Shown here: positions 17,546-47,677 of the stretch, piece after piece | Numbering within the stretch: the first letter of the stretch is position 1 | Layout: each line of letters opens with the position of its first letter | Made by a program: the position numbers and the translations under genes | Virus record (IMG/VR): IMGVR_UViG_3300027861_000043 | Location: 1-50,356 of that record | From: a virus | Length of the DNA stretch: 50,356 bases | Strand: one strand, 5' to 3' | The notes under the pieces: generated by a model | What the model saw: only the letters and a program-made list of their open reading frames with translations | Database searches by the model: none | Told to the model about the DNA's origin: nothing

Positions 17546-17872
17546 ATGAAAAACTATATTCAAGAAGGAAAGACGGTCACACTGACTGCGGCAGCAGATG
17601 TTGCTTCAGGTGACATTGCAATAGTCGGTTCACTCTACTCAGTTGCAACCGGTACTGTCGCATCTGGGGATGAGTTTGAAGGAATCACAGAAGGCGTTTA
17701 TGAGTTTACTAAAACGACTGCTGATGCTCCCGCTCAAGGTGCTGCTGCTTATTGGGATGATACAGAGAAAGAAGTGACTGTAGCAACCAGTGGTAACACG
17801 CTCATAGGTAAGTTCATGAAGGCTTACATTAATGGCGATACCCTTGCTCAAGTTCGATTGAACGCACAGTAA
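17546..17872 (+). CDS. DUF2190 capsid-associated (decoration-type) protein
   Basis: A 108-aa protein matching the DUF2190 pattern: NYIQEGKTVTLTAAADVASGD at the start, AAYWDDTEKEVT in the middle and GNTLIGK near the end. Members sit next to major capsid genes and are thought to be capsid stabilising or decorating proteins. It has its own ribosome-binding site (CAGAGGAATAAACC) downstream of the hairpin at 17490. Confidence 0.8.
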   Translation: MKNYIQEGKTVTLTAAADVASGDIAIVGSLYSVATGTVASGDEFEGITEGVYEFTKTTADAPAQGAAAYWDDTEKEVTVATSGNTLIGKFMKAYINGDTLAQVRLNAQ

Positions 17873-17874
17873 GC

Positions 17875-18189
17875 ATGAGTTACAAAGATGTAATTACAGC
17901 GGCATCTAGGGTGGTTAATTCCGTCCTAGGTGTCCGTTGTGACTATGAACATAGAGATGGTACATTCACCAGTGATATCCTTATTTCGATTAATAGAAAT
18001 CGAGAAGTAAAAGGTGATTTTGGAATAATAGCCGGTTCGTATATTGAGGTTTCTATTCTAAAGTCAGACATTGACAAAGTAAGACCGGATGACCGGTTTA
18101 TCGATGAAGATGGTCAGACCTATGAAATAACTGAGATGGTTAAAGATACTACTGCAAAATGGTATGCAAGCGTTATTGAGATTTTCTAA
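17875..18189 (+). CDS. Head-tail connector (gpFII-like)
   Basis: A 104-aa protein starting 2 nt after the DUF2190 gene. Its beta-rich plan with IAGSYIEVSILKSDIDKVRPDDRFIDEDGQTYEI fits the lambda gpFII / phage head-tail attachment family, which forms the ring at the portal exit to which the tail docks. Its place immediately before a gpZ-like protein supports this. Confidence 0.65.
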   Translation: MSYKDVITAASRVVNSVLGVRCDYEHRDGTFTSDILISINRNREVKGDFGIIAGSYIEVSILKSDIDKVRPDDRFIDEDGQTYEITEMVKDTTAKWYASVIEIF

Positions 18190-41838: not shown

Positions 41839-44292
41839 ATGCAGTATGATTTAGAGCAAGTCAGGACTCACCTCGCGTTGTTATCAGGTGAAGAAAACTC
41901 ATTAGAAACCTTTCAACATTATTTTGACCCTGACGATTTACCCAAGCGAAAAGGTTTAGCAACTCATTTTACGAATCGGCTGAATGAAAGCCTTGATTAC
42001 CTTCTTGAGATGCAAAAACATCTTTGCGGTATTTATGTGACTGTCAATAAAACAGACGGTAAAGGCAGGAAAGAAAAAAACGTCATCGGCTATCGTAACT
42101 TTTTTGTTGATTATGATGATAGTACTGAGCCATCGTGGACAATACCCCCTACCTGTACGACTAAACGTGGACCGAGAAATGGTCATGGGTTCTTTCACGT
42201 TAAAGGGGAGTGCAGCAAGGAGGACTGGATTAGAGTACAGAAACATTTAATTATGTTCTACAAAACGGACCCTGTAATGACTGACCCACCTCGCGTGATT
42301 CGTGTAGCAGGGTTCTTACATTTAAAAGATTCTAAAAACCCCCAAATGTACCGGCTTGATATCATCAATAAAGATGTCTCCTATACTGTCGATGAAATGA
42401 TTGCTTCTATGCCTCTCAATGAGGCGCAACAGGAAGCCCTTGACGATTGGGTTAATCAGGAGTCGAGAGTGGACACAGGGACCGGATATGAAGCTAATGC
42501 TGCCCATAGTGTTAGGCTACTCAATTGGGCTAAGATTCAAGCGCCCGTAGCTGTCCGTGGAACCGGCTCTAAAACAGTCCTTGGTGTTGCAGGGTGGGCG
42601 CATGATTTAGGTATTCCCTTTGACGAAACTCAACAAGTCCTATGGGAACACTATAACCCTCGCTGTGAGCCTCCGTGGTCTGATGAACCCCATGAGAAGA
42701 CAGATTTCTTTGAGACTGTTAAACGGGCCTATACAGGCGCTCATAGTGCGGCAGGTTGTCGAACATTCAAACACGCTGTTCAACAGCGCAAGCTACCCCC
42801 TCGGACTGATGGGTGGACTGCACAACCTGAGATTCTTAGTTCTGATTCTCCTGACATCGATACGAGCGAACGCGACTATGGTCGAATGAGTAAAGATGAA
42901 GCTGTTAATGCTAAGAAAATGTTAGACGCTAAGACACCGGAGATGGAAGTTGCTATCATGTTCGATGGTTACGAATACAATGGTCGAGAAATCTATCGTG
43001 AGGATAAAATGTATTACCGGTATAACGGTAAAACTTATGAGTATGTTTCCGATGATATTATCAAAGCGGAAATTCAAAAGTTCTGGTATAAGGATAAACC
43101 GTCGAGTGGGAAAATTAACGGCGTTATTGAGTCTCATAAAAACCTAGTAACTCGTAGTGGATTGGCTAACGGTACATGGCTCAATCGAAAAGATTCTGAT
43201 GGTTCAAACTATTCAGTTTTTAATAATGGCATCGTTGACCTGTCACTTGAAAAACCAATTGTCATTCCTCATTCGTGGGCTTACTTTTCGTTTGCTAGTA
43301 AATCGTATGACTATGACCCCGAAGCTAAATGTCCTGTGTTCACACGTACAATAAATGATATGTTTGAGCATGACCCCGATAATACAGTTCTACTTTTAGA
43401 ATTCATCGGCTTGTTACTCACTCATGTTTTAAAATGGCAAAAATTCTTATTCTTAAAAGGTGTTCCTCGCGGCGGTAAGGGAGTCATAACCAATCTCATT
43501 CGTAAGTTAGTCGGTGAAGAAAACTGTGCTAACCCATCGCTTCAGGATATTGTTAAAGCGCCTATTCTTCATTCATTATCGACTAAATCAGTAGCATTCT
43601 GTGATGACGTTCGCTCACTACCAATGGGTATTCGAGATACCGTATTATCCAAACTGCTTCAGCTTACCGGTTGTGATGCTCAGACATTCGATGTTAAATT
43701 CAAGGGCGCTCAAACGTGCGTTATACCGGCGCGATATGTGATGAGTTCTAATGAGATTCCAGACTTCATTGATGCCTCTGGTGCTTTGCTTGCTAGAATG
43801 CTGCTAATCACGTTCGAGAAGTCCTACAGAGGTCGAGAAAACCTTACATTGGGCGATGACCTTGCTGCTGAACTATCTGGTATCTGTAACCTCGCTACGG
43901 CTGCTTATCGTGCTGCTGATAAACGTGGTCGATTTACTGAACCTGAGTCTAGTAAGATTGAAAAAGAAATTATGCGTACTGAGTTCTTCCCCCTTTCTAG
44001 TTTCGTTACTGACAATTGTGACCTCGAAGATGATAGCTTGGTGTCAGTAACGGACCTCTATAAATCTTATCTGGTTTATGCGTCAACGAATTCCGTTCGT
44101 ATGCCATACACTAAAACGAAATTATGCAAACAGCTTCGTAGTTCTGATTTAGCTTTGCGTATGGTTAGAAAAACGATTGACGGTAAGAAAGAAAACTACT
44201 TAATCGGTATTGAATTAAATCAAGAAGCAAGGGATATTATCAGTCTCGATAATGTTACGAACTTCCCAAACAGGAGAGAAAACAATGGTTAG
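41839..44292 (+). CDS. Primase/helicase (RepB-type AEP primase fused to SF3 helicase)
   Basis: An 817-aa protein. The primase part (about 10-200) has FFVDYDD (Asp91, Asp93), GHGFFHV (His120) and DPPRVIRVAGFLHLKDSKNP (Asp149, Arg152, Arg155). A linker domain (about 210-500) follows. The SF3 helicase (about 500-720) has Walker A GVPRGGKG, Walker B VAFCDDV and motif C YVMSSNEIPDF. A C-terminal winged-helix-like part (VSVTDLYKSYLVYASTNSVRMPYTKTKLCKQLRSS) ends the protein. One enzyme can thus unwind DNA at the origin and make primers for the family B polymerase on the opposite arm. Confidence 0.9.
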   Translation: MQYDLEQVRTHLALLSGEENSLETFQHYFDPDDLPKRKGLATHFTNRLNESLDYLLEMQKHLCGIYVTVNKTDGKGRKEKNVIGYRNFFVDYDDSTEPSWTIPPTCTTKRGPRNGHGFFHVKGECSKEDWIRVQKHLIMFYKTDPVMTDPPRVIRVAGFLHLKDSKNPQMYRLDIINKDVSYTVDEMIASMPLNEAQQEALDDWVNQESRVDTGTGYEANAAHSVRLLNWAKIQAPVAVRGTGSKTVLGVAGWAHDLGIPFDETQQVLWEHYNPRCEPPWSDEPHEKTDFFETVKRAYTGAHSAAGCRTFKHAVQQRKLPPRTDGWTAQPEILSSDSPDIDTSERDYGRMSKDEAVNAKKMLDAKTPEMEVAIMFDGYEYNGREIYREDKMYYRYNGKTYEYVSDDIIKAEIQKFWYKDKPSSGKINGVIESHKNLVTRSGLANGTWLNRKDSDGSNYSVFNNGIVDLSLEKPIVIPHSWAYFSFASKSYDYDPEAKCPVFTRTINDMFEHDPDNTVLLLEFIGLLLTHVLKWQKFLFLKGVPRGGKGVITNLIRKLVGEENCANPSLQDIVKAPILHSLSTKSVAFCDDVRSLPMGIRDTVLSKLLQLTGCDAQTFDVKFKGAQTCVIPARYVMSSNEIPDFIDASGALLARMLLITFEKSYRGRENLTLGDDLAAELSGICNLATAAYRAADKRGRFTEPESSKIEKEIMRTEFFPLSSFVTDNCDLEDDSLVSVTDLYKSYLVYASTNSVRMPYTKTKLCKQLRSSDLALRMVRKTIDGKKENYLIGIELNQEARDIISLDNVTNFPNRRENNG

Positions 44293-45953: not shown

Positions 45954-46372
45954 TCTTCATTGAGTTTGTGATACATTTCATTAAAATTAATGAAATCTCT
46001 ACCTTCAGGGTTGGAAAATCGAATTCCGTATTTAGAATGGTCCACAAGTTCTTTCGCCTTATTTAAAGAGCAACCTAAAATTTCAGGCATATCTTTAGTC
46101 TTCACCCCCCTATCGACTAGCTCTTTAAATAATCTGTAAGTTAGGTGTTTAGCTTTCAAACGATAGAAATTCTTCCATTTAACTGCCTTGCTCCATTTCA
46201 ACTTATAAGTTTTACCATCATTGTTTAAAGATTCAGTACCGCTTTTGATTTGCCTTTTAGTTGTAGTGATATCAGTCTTAATTTTATAAAGTTCAAATTC
46301 AATTTCTTCTTTCTTCGACATCAAACCTTTCAGTTCTTTTTCCTTCGTTTCTTTAAAATCGTCAGTACTCAT
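45926..46372 (-). CDS. Early coiled-coil/HTH protein bracketed by direct repeats
   Basis: A 148-aa protein. Residues 1-50 form a charged coiled coil. Residues about 80-115 (LFKELVDRGVKTKDMPEILGCSLNKAKELVDHS) look like a helix-turn-helix. The end, INESRSKQ, is the same as that of the next upstream gene because both lie in 34-nt direct repeats. Recombination between the repeats would remove exactly this gene and leave the operon in frame. Probably a DNA-binding accessory protein; function unknown. Confidence 0.6.
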   Translation of the reverse strand: MSTDDFKETKEKELKGLMSKKEEIEFELYKIKTDITTTKRQIKSGTESLNNDGKTYKLKWSKAVKWKNFYRLKAKHLTYRLFKELVDRGVKTKDMPEILGCSLNKAKELVDHSKYGIRFSNPEGRDFINFNEMYHKLNEEINESRSKQ

Positions 46373-46399
46373 TACTGCTTACTCCTACTCTCGTTAATT
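46366..46399 (-). repeat. 34-nt direct repeat, copy 2
   Basis: Identical to 45920-45953, 446 bp apart. It contains the C-terminal codons of the gene at 46372-46851, the ribosome-binding site and the ATG of the gene at 45926-46372. Confidence 0.97.
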
Positions 46400-46851
46400 A
46401 ATGTATCGATACACTCAATCATTCCGTCGATGAGGGCTATTTCTCCCTGCTCGACGCTCGCTATCCAGTACCGAACTGAATCGTGCTTACGGCTCAAATC
46501 TCGAAGCTTGAGAGGTATCGAAACACCCCCCGCTTCAGGTGTAGTGAATTGTTCATCAAGAATACCCCTCCTATCTAAGCTGTCGAATATACCCTTTTTA
46601 TTCATGAATTTATCTCCATTATTAAAATCGTGCGATAACCCTGTCCTTAATGCTTTTAATATAACACTTTCAACATCCACTTGTGTTCTTAAATTAAAAT
46701 CTAAACATAGTTTTTTTAAATAATCTTGAGATATCTTGCGTAGCTCGGTGGCTGTGACGTTCGTGCGGCGGGACTTGCCTACCTGATAGCCACGATTGGT
46801 TAAGCATTCAATTAAGCTTTCATCTGATATTAAATTTAATGAGCCGTTCAT
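46372..46851 (-). CDS. First gene of the leftward early operon
   Basis: A 159-aa helical protein. The N-terminal part (SLIECLTNRGYQVGKSRRTNVTATELRKISQDYLKKL) could bind DNA, and the C-terminal part has DSVRYWIASVEQGEIALIDGMIECIDTLI. AAGGAAATAAATAACC precedes the ATG. It lies about 30 nt from the predicted start of the operator-controlled leftward promoter, so it should be among the first proteins made; by position it is a candidate autoregulator of that promoter. No family recognised. Confidence 0.6.
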   Translation of the reverse strand: MNGSLNLISDESLIECLTNRGYQVGKSRRTNVTATELRKISQDYLKKLCLDFNLRTQVDVESVILKALRTGLSHDFNNGDKFMNKKGIFDSLDRRGILDEQFTTPEAGGVSIPLKLRDLSRKHDSVRYWIASVEQGEIALIDGMIECIDTLINESRSKQ

Positions 46852-46885
46852 GGTTATTTATTTCCTTATTTGTTGGTGTAAGTGG

Positions 46886-46915
46886 ATTATATACAGGTCC
46901 ACTTATTAATGTCAA
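46886..46915 (-). promoter_or_regulatory. Strong leftward early promoter embedded in operators
   Basis: On the minus strand TTGACA (46910-46915) and TATAAT (46886-46891) are both consensus, 18 bp apart. AAGTGGA-type heptamers lie upstream of the -35 (46923-46929), in the spacer (46898-46904, opposite orientation) and across the -10 (46880-46886). This is the layout of a repressible early promoter. Confidence 0.7.
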
Positions 46916-46963
46916 CTACTTTAAGTGGACCGTTAGTAATTTTTTGTACAATTTAGGGGGAGA

Positions 46964-47474
46964 GGACAAAAGTTTGGGAAAACGGACAAAAACTTTTGTC
47001 CTCCTTAAGTCTATGATTTATAACAGTTTTTCGGGTTTTTTGAGGTTGAGAGGACAAAAGTTAAAATAAAATATTTAAAATTTGGGGTAATGAAATCAAT
47101 AGCTTAGAGGTGAAAAGGACAAAAGGACACAAAATAAGGCTGTTTTGGGGTGCAGCTCTGTAGCTCCACAGCCACAGCCAGTACTAAGCTACAGTTACTA
47201 TATAAATACTAGTATATCTTTATAATAAGTAGTATATTTTGTGTCCTTTTGTCCTTTTGCCTTGTAAGTCATTGATTTATAAAGCCCAAATTTTAAATAT
47301 TATTTTTGGTTTTTGTCCAAACTTTTGTCCTCTTGCTCTGTAAGTTATTGATTTTACAGGGTAATTCGGGCTTTTTGCCTTAAAGTGCAACTTTTGTCCT
47401 CTTAGAGCAACTTTTGTCCTTTCGACCTCTAAGTCATTGATTTATAAGGCCCAAATAAAATATTTTAAATTTGG
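46964..47474. repeat. Composite repeat array between the divergent early operons, candidate origin
   Basis: Three boxes recur. Box A, CTTTTGTCC or its complement: about nine copies at 46964, 46984, 46993, 47052, 47117, 47246, 47322, 47391 and 47411. Box B, TAAGTCATTGATTTATAA: exact at 47265-47282 and 47430-47447, variants at 47006-47023 and 47341-47356, inverted at 47091-47106. Box C, an AT-rich CCCAAATTTTAAATATT or complement: 47070-47086, 47285-47301, with a palindromic variant at 47449-47474. Order A-B-C is kept in several units. The region has no convincing ORF. Iteron-like layout next to early promoters suggests origin function; this is inference. Confidence 0.6.
47070..47301. repeat. 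Imperfect 67-bp inverted repeat around an AT-rich core
   Basis: The arms 47070-47136 and 47235-47301 pair at 57 of 67 positions by my count, without gaps. The inner 24 bp (47113-47136 with 47235-47258) and the outer 17 bp (47070-47086 with 47285-47301) are perfect. The 98-bp centre holds a CAGCTCTGTAGCTCCACAGC stretch and then nearly pure A/T (about 47197-47240), suitable for unwinding. Confidence 0.85.
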
Positions 47475-47677
47475 GTATTTTAAGTGGATTTCAGGGTAAA
47501 TGAGAATTGCTCCATTAAAGGACACATATTTCCACTGGTTGAAGATAAAATGAGATTTGAAAGTAAAAATAAGTGGACTTTGACCTAAAAATAAATTTGA
47601 CAAGTGGATTTTGTTTGTGTTACCGCGTGTGCGCGTTCTATTTATAGAAAGTTTTTAAAAATAAGTGGATTATTTAA

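Follow-up and report, generated by a model that had tools for sequence, protein, structure and literature searches.

The window analyzed here is an entire virus record of 50,356 bases, and it represents a tailed phage with a lambda-type (gpA-type) terminase, head genes, and tail genes. Its replication genes encode PolA, a helicase, a DUF2800 exonuclease, an Enc34-type ssDNA-binding protein, a VRR-NUC-type nuclease, and a prim-pol/SF3 protein. The last of these combines an AEP-type prim-pol, an SF3/D5 ATPase, and a C-terminal winged helix. Matches to Pfam D5_N and DUF5906 above the cut-off place an SF3/D5 helicase domain in this protein, and in a Foldseek comparison its helicase region matches 7ola, the primase-helicase of SaPI5 (TMt of 0.62 to 0.72). 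The modelled C terminus (pLDDT of about 80) runs in the order helix, helix, recognition helix, and two-strand wing. Phage records contain 309 relatives of the primase, of which the best is about 37% identical. The primase gene ends about 2.7 kb from the start of an intergenic repeat array, whose A boxes this protein likely reads as the initiator. The protein features used below are as follows.

41839 to 44292, plus strand: prim-pol/SF3 (D5-type) primase-helicase of 817 amino acids, candidate initiator
43996 to 44217, plus strand: C-terminal winged helix of the initiator, residues 720 to 793 (modelled)
44113 to 44139, plus strand: recognition helix of the initiator, residues 759 to 767 (modelled)

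An intergenic array of three recurring boxes

An earlier note described a three-box repeat array (A-B-C) at 46964 to 47474. The array is real: its boxes lie where they had been placed and recur far beyond chance. Its components and immediate neighbors are listed here in order.

46886 to 46915, minus strand: perfect sigma-70 consensus promoter (TTGACA-18-TATAAT) for the leftward genes, overlapped by AAGTGGA boxes
46962 to 47475, no strand: whole array, putative replication origin, intergenic between divergent gene blocks
46964 to 46972, minus strand: A box (CTTTTGTCC), putative initiator iteron
46984 to 46991, minus strand: A box (TTTTGTCC core)
46993 to 47001, plus strand: A box, the sole left-side copy pointing toward the core
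47006 to 47023, plus strand: degenerate B box with two mismatches, IHF consensus not intact
47052 to 47060, minus strand: A box
47064 to 47136, plus strand: left arm of the long inverted repeat (82% complementary to 47235 to 47307), its first 23 nt a C tract
47094 to 47106, plus strand: IHF consensus AATCAATAGCTTA, an inverted B box, followed after 10 bp by an A box
47117 to 47125, minus strand: A box, left innermost
47126 to 47245, no strand: core between the innermost A boxes, candidate DNA unwinding element
47235 to 47307, minus strand: right arm of the long inverted repeat
47246 to 47254, plus strand: A box, right innermost
47265 to 47277, minus strand: IHF consensus AATCAATGACTTA (exact B box at 47265 to 47282)
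47285 to 47301, plus strand: C tract, AT-rich flank at the A-tract side of the IHF site
47311 to 47318, plus strand: A box (TTTTGTCC core)
47322 to 47330, plus strand: A box
47341 to 47353, minus strand: IHF consensus AATCAATAACTTA, a variant B box
47391 to 47399, plus strand: A box
47411 to 47419, plus strand: A box
47430 to 47442, minus strand: IHF consensus AATCAATGACTTA (exact B box at 47430 to 47447)
47450 to 47475, plus strand: C tract, near-palindromic CCCAAATAAAATATTTTAAATTTGGG
47491 to 47520, plus strand: element that ends in TCCATTAAAG, about 29 bp long, kept beside the array in relatives

The 9-mer CTTTTGTCC occurs in eight exact copies, all within 46964 to 47419, against 0.61 expected in the window, and none of the shuffled sequences contained eight. 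Its 8-mer core TTTTGTCC is found ten times in the array and twice elsewhere in the window, so that the nine or so A boxes first counted come to ten, eight with the full 9-mer and two with the core. The exact 20-bp spacing reported for the copies at 47391 and 47411 is confirmed and recurs at 46964/46984. Five B boxes were likewise found, as claimed: two are exact (47265 and 47430), one has two mismatches (47006), one is a variant (47341 to 47353), and one is inverted (47094 to 47106). The recurrence of box C holds for three good copies (47064 to 47086, 47285 to 47301, and 47450 to 47475), while the remaining two units have only a CGGG/T-rich tract. The A-B-C order of the units and the inversion of one of them had been read correctly. 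The mirrored units account for the long inverted repeat I1, whose 73-nt arms are 82% complementary and stand 98 nt apart.

Box B as an IHF consensus site in fixed register with box A

The reverse complement of box B (TAAGTCATTGATTTATAA) contains AATCAATGACTTA, a perfect match to the IHF consensus WATCAANNNNTTR; by that consensus, box B is an IHF site. Four perfect sites fall within the roughly 520 bp of the array, where 0.06 would be expected, and none of 5,000 Markov sequences modelled on the same region reaches four. These copies differ solely in the unconstrained N4 (TGAC twice, TAAC, and TAGC), and the fifth B copy, at 47006, has lost the consensus. An AT-rich flank is present at the WATCAA side and is supplied by the C tracts, which form the kind of flank that IHF favors on that side.

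The arrangement of the boxes is equally regular. At all four IHF sites, an A box lies exactly 10 bp from the TTA end (47246/47265, 47322/47341, 47411/47430, and the inverted pair 47106/47117). All four IHF sites and nine of the ten A boxes point outward from the core at 47126 to 47245, the exception being the unit at 46993 to 47023, and the array is thus two-fold symmetric about an AT-rich core. The earlier statement that the array matches no known element has to be given up, since box B conforms to the textbook IHF site and the overall plan of iterons, AT-rich region, and self-loading helicase is that of the SaPI and P4 origins. The IHF identity of box B, the constant 10-bp gap between A and B, the two-fold symmetry, and the AAGTGGA boxes on the flanks had gone unnoticed.

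The core and its surroundings

Of all 50-bp stretches in the 50,356-base window, that at 47190 to 47239 is the least stable by nearest-neighbor energies; it lies inside the core, with the ten A boxes on both sides. The left half of the core (47139 to 47185) is richer in G+C and could form a hairpin (GGCTGT...ACAGCC), perhaps a site of priming or strand initiation. We found no DnaA box in the array, unlike the second phage group described below.

The array is predicted to fold strongly, with a z score of about -11.5, but it does so with DNA and RNA parameters alike, a by-product of the inverted repeat. An Rfam search of the array gave no match and no terminator-like site was found in it, and the suggestion of an RNA module, which gained no specific support, was rejected. 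A decayed gene duplication was rejected as well: no open reading frame of at least 50 amino acids spans the repeat units, and in relatives the architecture persists even though the sequences of the boxes differ.

AAGTGGA boxes occur at 46880, 46898 (minus strand), 46923, 47482, 47571, 47602, 47663, and 47683. All of them are outside the array, on or close to the divergent promoters, and they resemble a set of operators. One metagenomic relative (L180) has TTAAGTGGAT in common with the window, and Vibrio and Shewanella relatives carry ACTGTTGTAACTGT boxes at the place of AAGTGGA.

Conservation of the layout in related phages

The array found no match in a DNA similarity search of phage and plasmid collections, and a search of genome contigs for A and B together found none. 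Single-sequence searches of viral contigs with 46372 to 46851 and with the primase also returned nothing, and relatives in viral contigs were reached only with alignment queries. The 44 matches to the A+B pattern include about 13 with several boxes, and many are single chance pairs.

The same layout, with a lineage-specific A box, is present in Shewanella, Vibrio, Pseudoalteromonas-type, and metagenomic phages. A syntenic region is found in two Vibrio phages, 1.055.O and 1.049.O, and in Shewanella phage 1/44. It carries GTGGCACA boxes, and its IHF sites (four consensus sites in 1.055.O, four in 1.049.O, and two in the region of 1/44 shown) are mirrored around an AT-rich core that measures about 100 bp. 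In 1.055.O, the gaps between IHF sites and A boxes read 8, 3, core, 3, 8, so that the halves are mirror images. Vibrio phage 1.083.O has GTGTCACA boxes and three IHF sites mirrored around an AT-rich core, and the box of 2.096.O is also GTGTCACA. Three metagenomic relatives share the mirrored layout: L180 (CCACGGTTGGGG), L281 (TACGGGCA), and L190, which has CGGTCC-type boxes, five IHF sites, and a primase with 27% identity. These relatives encode much the same set of replication proteins (PolA, helicase, exonuclease, ssDNA-binding protein, VRR-NUC, and prim-pol/SF3).

The plan is thus kept while the A box is replaced, as would follow if box A were read by a protein specific to the phage and box B by a protein of the host. 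The recognition helices are in keeping with this expectation, as the GTGGCACA-box phages have the helix LSQTKIIRELNS in common and the two GTGTCACA-box phages have LSQQKVIREINS. This agreement fits an initiator that would read the A box, although the independent cases are few: each A box in the family of the window is known from few independent phages, which limits the covariation test there. The array is not a constant companion of the primase. L182 to L188 and L279 (393E50-1) have a related primase and no array in the stretch examined, which for L279 was the inspected intergenic region, and LMAVpVPP (L132) and KLEA5 (L133) have related primases and no clear IHF array.

IHF-iteron arrays in two further phage groups

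Viral contigs contain at least 120 stretches with an exact B box, and changing one base of the IHF core reduces the matches to 4. This drop shows that the sequence of box B is constrained, as distinct from showing that it is bound. In flanks that extend about 250 bp to either side, a 7-mer is present at least four times at 43 of 112 distinct B-box loci and at 5 of 108 controls. Another IHF consensus lies within 350 bp at 59 of the 112 loci and at 6 of the 108 controls, for which the window searched was somewhat smaller.

In a second group of phages (L009, L021, L126, and L193 to L271), a gene for a prim-pol/AAA_25 helicase lies upstream of the array, most members have a pair of IHF sites separated by about 82 bp, and they usually also contain a DnaA box. 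The iterons are exchanged in concert and read GGGTCA, GGGGCA, GGTGCA, GGTACA, or GGTATG. Across 45 distinct proteins of this group, a single position of the modelled recognition helix determines the iteron without exception: Q goes with GGGTCA (23 proteins), R with GGGGCA (8), M with GGTGCA (13), and K with GGTACA (1). This position carries 1.577 of 1.577 bits, the full label entropy. The position one turn earlier carries 1.13 bits (N/D, E, E, and V for the same iteron order), and the third best of the 392 alignment columns carries 0.60 bits. A tree built without the winged-helix domain requires about 16 iteron changes, indicating that shared ancestry does not explain the match between helix and iteron. 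Helix and iterons were possibly swapped jointly by recombination, which would still show that they belong together. More distant members deviate at this determining position (L046 has N and K with GGGTCA; L060 has V and Q with GGTATG), and the simple code is therefore valid within the second group. The joint change of the iteron hexamer and two residues that open the recognition helix looks like a DNA recognition code in the prim-pol/AAA_25 helicase. By analogy, it supports the mechanism proposed for the window, whose initiator would belong to a different family.

A third group (L151 to L175) has GGACA boxes with IHF sites 3' of a Toprim/AAA_25 protein. The A box of the window itself is also found in this group, where the initiator belongs to this different, Toprim/AAA_25 family. 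Separately, an 18-bp IHF box identical to box B lies beside tRNA-like 3' ends in L012, L015, L036, L083, and L097, which are probably attachment sites of other viruses.

A probable replication origin and its rivals

Taken together, the layout of boxes, IHF sites, and core argues that the array is very probably a replication origin of the phage, with the primase-helicase at the A boxes, IHF at the B boxes, and melting in the core. This supports the suggestion in the earlier note of a repeated protein-DNA module, perhaps an origin. Under the proposed mechanism, the primase-helicase would use its winged helix to bind the A boxes, and hexamers would assemble in each half of the array. The four B boxes would be occupied by host IHF, which would bend the DNA between the A box and the C tract of each unit and so pack each half into a compact structure. 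From these two halves, which face outward, a pair of helicase hexamers would be loaded around the AT-rich core, and the core would then melt as the two helicases move apart. Priming by the prim-pol domain would allow bidirectional synthesis to start at the array. Counting against this reading are the 2.7 kb between the array and the initiator gene, the lack of a DnaA box, the relatives with this primase that showed no array in the stretch examined, the small number of independent cases linking helix and box within the window's own family, the fact that the strongest covariation comes from another initiator family, and the presence of the window's A box in the third group with its Toprim/AAA_25 initiator.

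It is improbable that the array is instead a transcriptional switch, with a phage regulator on the A boxes and an IHF-shaped loop effecting repression or activation between divergent promoters while replication starts elsewhere. Such a switch would suit the location between divergent gene blocks, the perfect sigma-70 promoter at 46915 to 46886, and the AAGTGGA boxes near the promoters. However, those boxes form a separate set outside the array and closer to the promoters, whereas the core enclosed by the A boxes melts easily and contains no gene. A switch also sits poorly with an A box that varies by lineage within a constant layout and with a second-group iteron that is predicted by the replication helicase.

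We consider it very unlikely that the array is a packaging site (cos or pac), in which the A boxes would be sites for the terminase small subunit with IHF bends between them, as in lambda cosB. The phage does encode a lambda gpA-type terminase, and two other groups have comparable arrays immediately upstream of the gene for the terminase small subunit. In the window, however, that gene (324 to 881) is about 3.2 kb from the array with the record ends joined, and the adjacency of cosB is absent. Moreover, the iteron of the terminase-adjacent group covaries with the primase-helicase, and a DnaA box is usually present. Lambda cosB is not known to be organized as an array with two-fold symmetry about an AT-rich core.

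Least credible of all is a partition or recombination site of the P1 parS or attP kind, both of which use IHF, since the B-identical boxes beside tRNA-type att sequences in the five viruses named above and a gene of Shewanella phage 1/44 annotated as ParB-like are set against the absence of ParA, ParB, and integrase among the window proteins scanned (part of the open reading frames), the lack of any tRNA gene seen in the window, and the several relatives that are isolated phages with their own replication genes. The cosB reading was rejected in favor of a probable replication origin, and so were those of parS and attP as far as the proteins scanned allow.

Comparison with known origins

SaPI origins contain an AT-rich region flanked by iterons. 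The Rep origins of SaPI5 and SaPIbov1 and the putative origin of SCCmec Cch2 combine a self-loading initiator helicase with short iterons, as proposed here, and the fold of the candidate initiator resembles that of the SaPI5 primase-helicase. The SaPI origin lies directly downstream of the initiator gene, whereas the array of the window is 2.7 kb away. The window further differs from SaPIs in its perfect IHF sites in a fixed iteron register and in that the hosts of its relatives are gammaproteobacteria. SaPI Rep helicases recognize iterons via their C-terminal domain (PMC7581432).

The satellite phage P4 (alpha/ori) offers a similar case of a primase-helicase fusion acting at iterons, like the initiator proposed for the window, and we know of no fixed IHF-iteron register in it. 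P4 alpha has a Toprim primase (PMC4234260), whereas the window protein has a prim-pol. We conclude that the candidate origin of the window is a variant that would work like the iteron origins of the SaPI/P4 type, although it does not lie directly downstream of the initiator gene.

The pRN1-type replicons and the phages with a prim-pol/SF3/winged-helix protein have the same domain order in their replication protein as the window. For pRN1-type replicons, a large inverted repeat is the proposed origin (PMC4234260). In pRN1, a 100-nt stem-loop that has no iterons immediately follows the gene, whereas the window has about ten iterons and four IHF sites 2.7 kb away. The window thus lacks a stem-loop origin of this type; its imperfect inverted repeat is present together with iterons. 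In the parts of the published account that we consulted, the NrS-1 primase-polymerase is described as an AEP prim-pol with an E1/D5-like hexameric helicase, its 8-nt recognition sequence occurs twice in the genome and marks the proposed origin, and those parts describe no iteron-IHF array such as that in the window (PMC7102993).

Among plasmids, the window has iterons, an AT-rich region, and one or more IHF sites in common with the iteron origins of pSC101 and R6K. The initiators of these plasmids are Rep/pi proteins that recruit the host helicase, whereas the proposed initiator of the window is itself a helicase and its IHF site is repeated once per unit. Neither the repeated IHF site in fixed register nor its use by three initiator families was described in the open-access literature searched.

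A possible class of modular phage origins

For most lytic phages, the origin is not known and is hard to spot. The IHF-iteron layout provides a sequence signature, and it has located candidate origins in several phage groups. We see an even chance that these arrays represent a widespread modular class of phage origins that serves at least three families of self-loading initiators and combines a near-invariant IHF cassette with a variable short iteron and a two-residue/two-base identity code. If so, the families would be prim-pol/SF3, prim-pol/AAA_25, and Toprim/AAA_25, the code would reside where the recognition helix begins in the initiator's winged helix, and close relatives would move from one replicon identity to another through joint changes in helix and iterons. 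The exact match between helix residues and iteron bases in the second group makes it possible to test directly how phage replicons acquire and alter their identity, and whether switching permits related phages to co-replicate or to escape interference from a competitor's initiator.

Other repeated elements

In L180, positions 17750 to 18100 hold a long array of ATAGTCAT/AGCATA short repeats, with 38 copies of ATAGTCA in 600 bp, that is unrelated to the origin-like array. The element of roughly 29 bp, whose end reads TCCATTAAAG or CCTATTAAAGTGAG, lies beside the array in the window and in L129, L130, L131, L180, L281, L282, and L287. The window has one copy of it, and relatives often have two to three direct copies.
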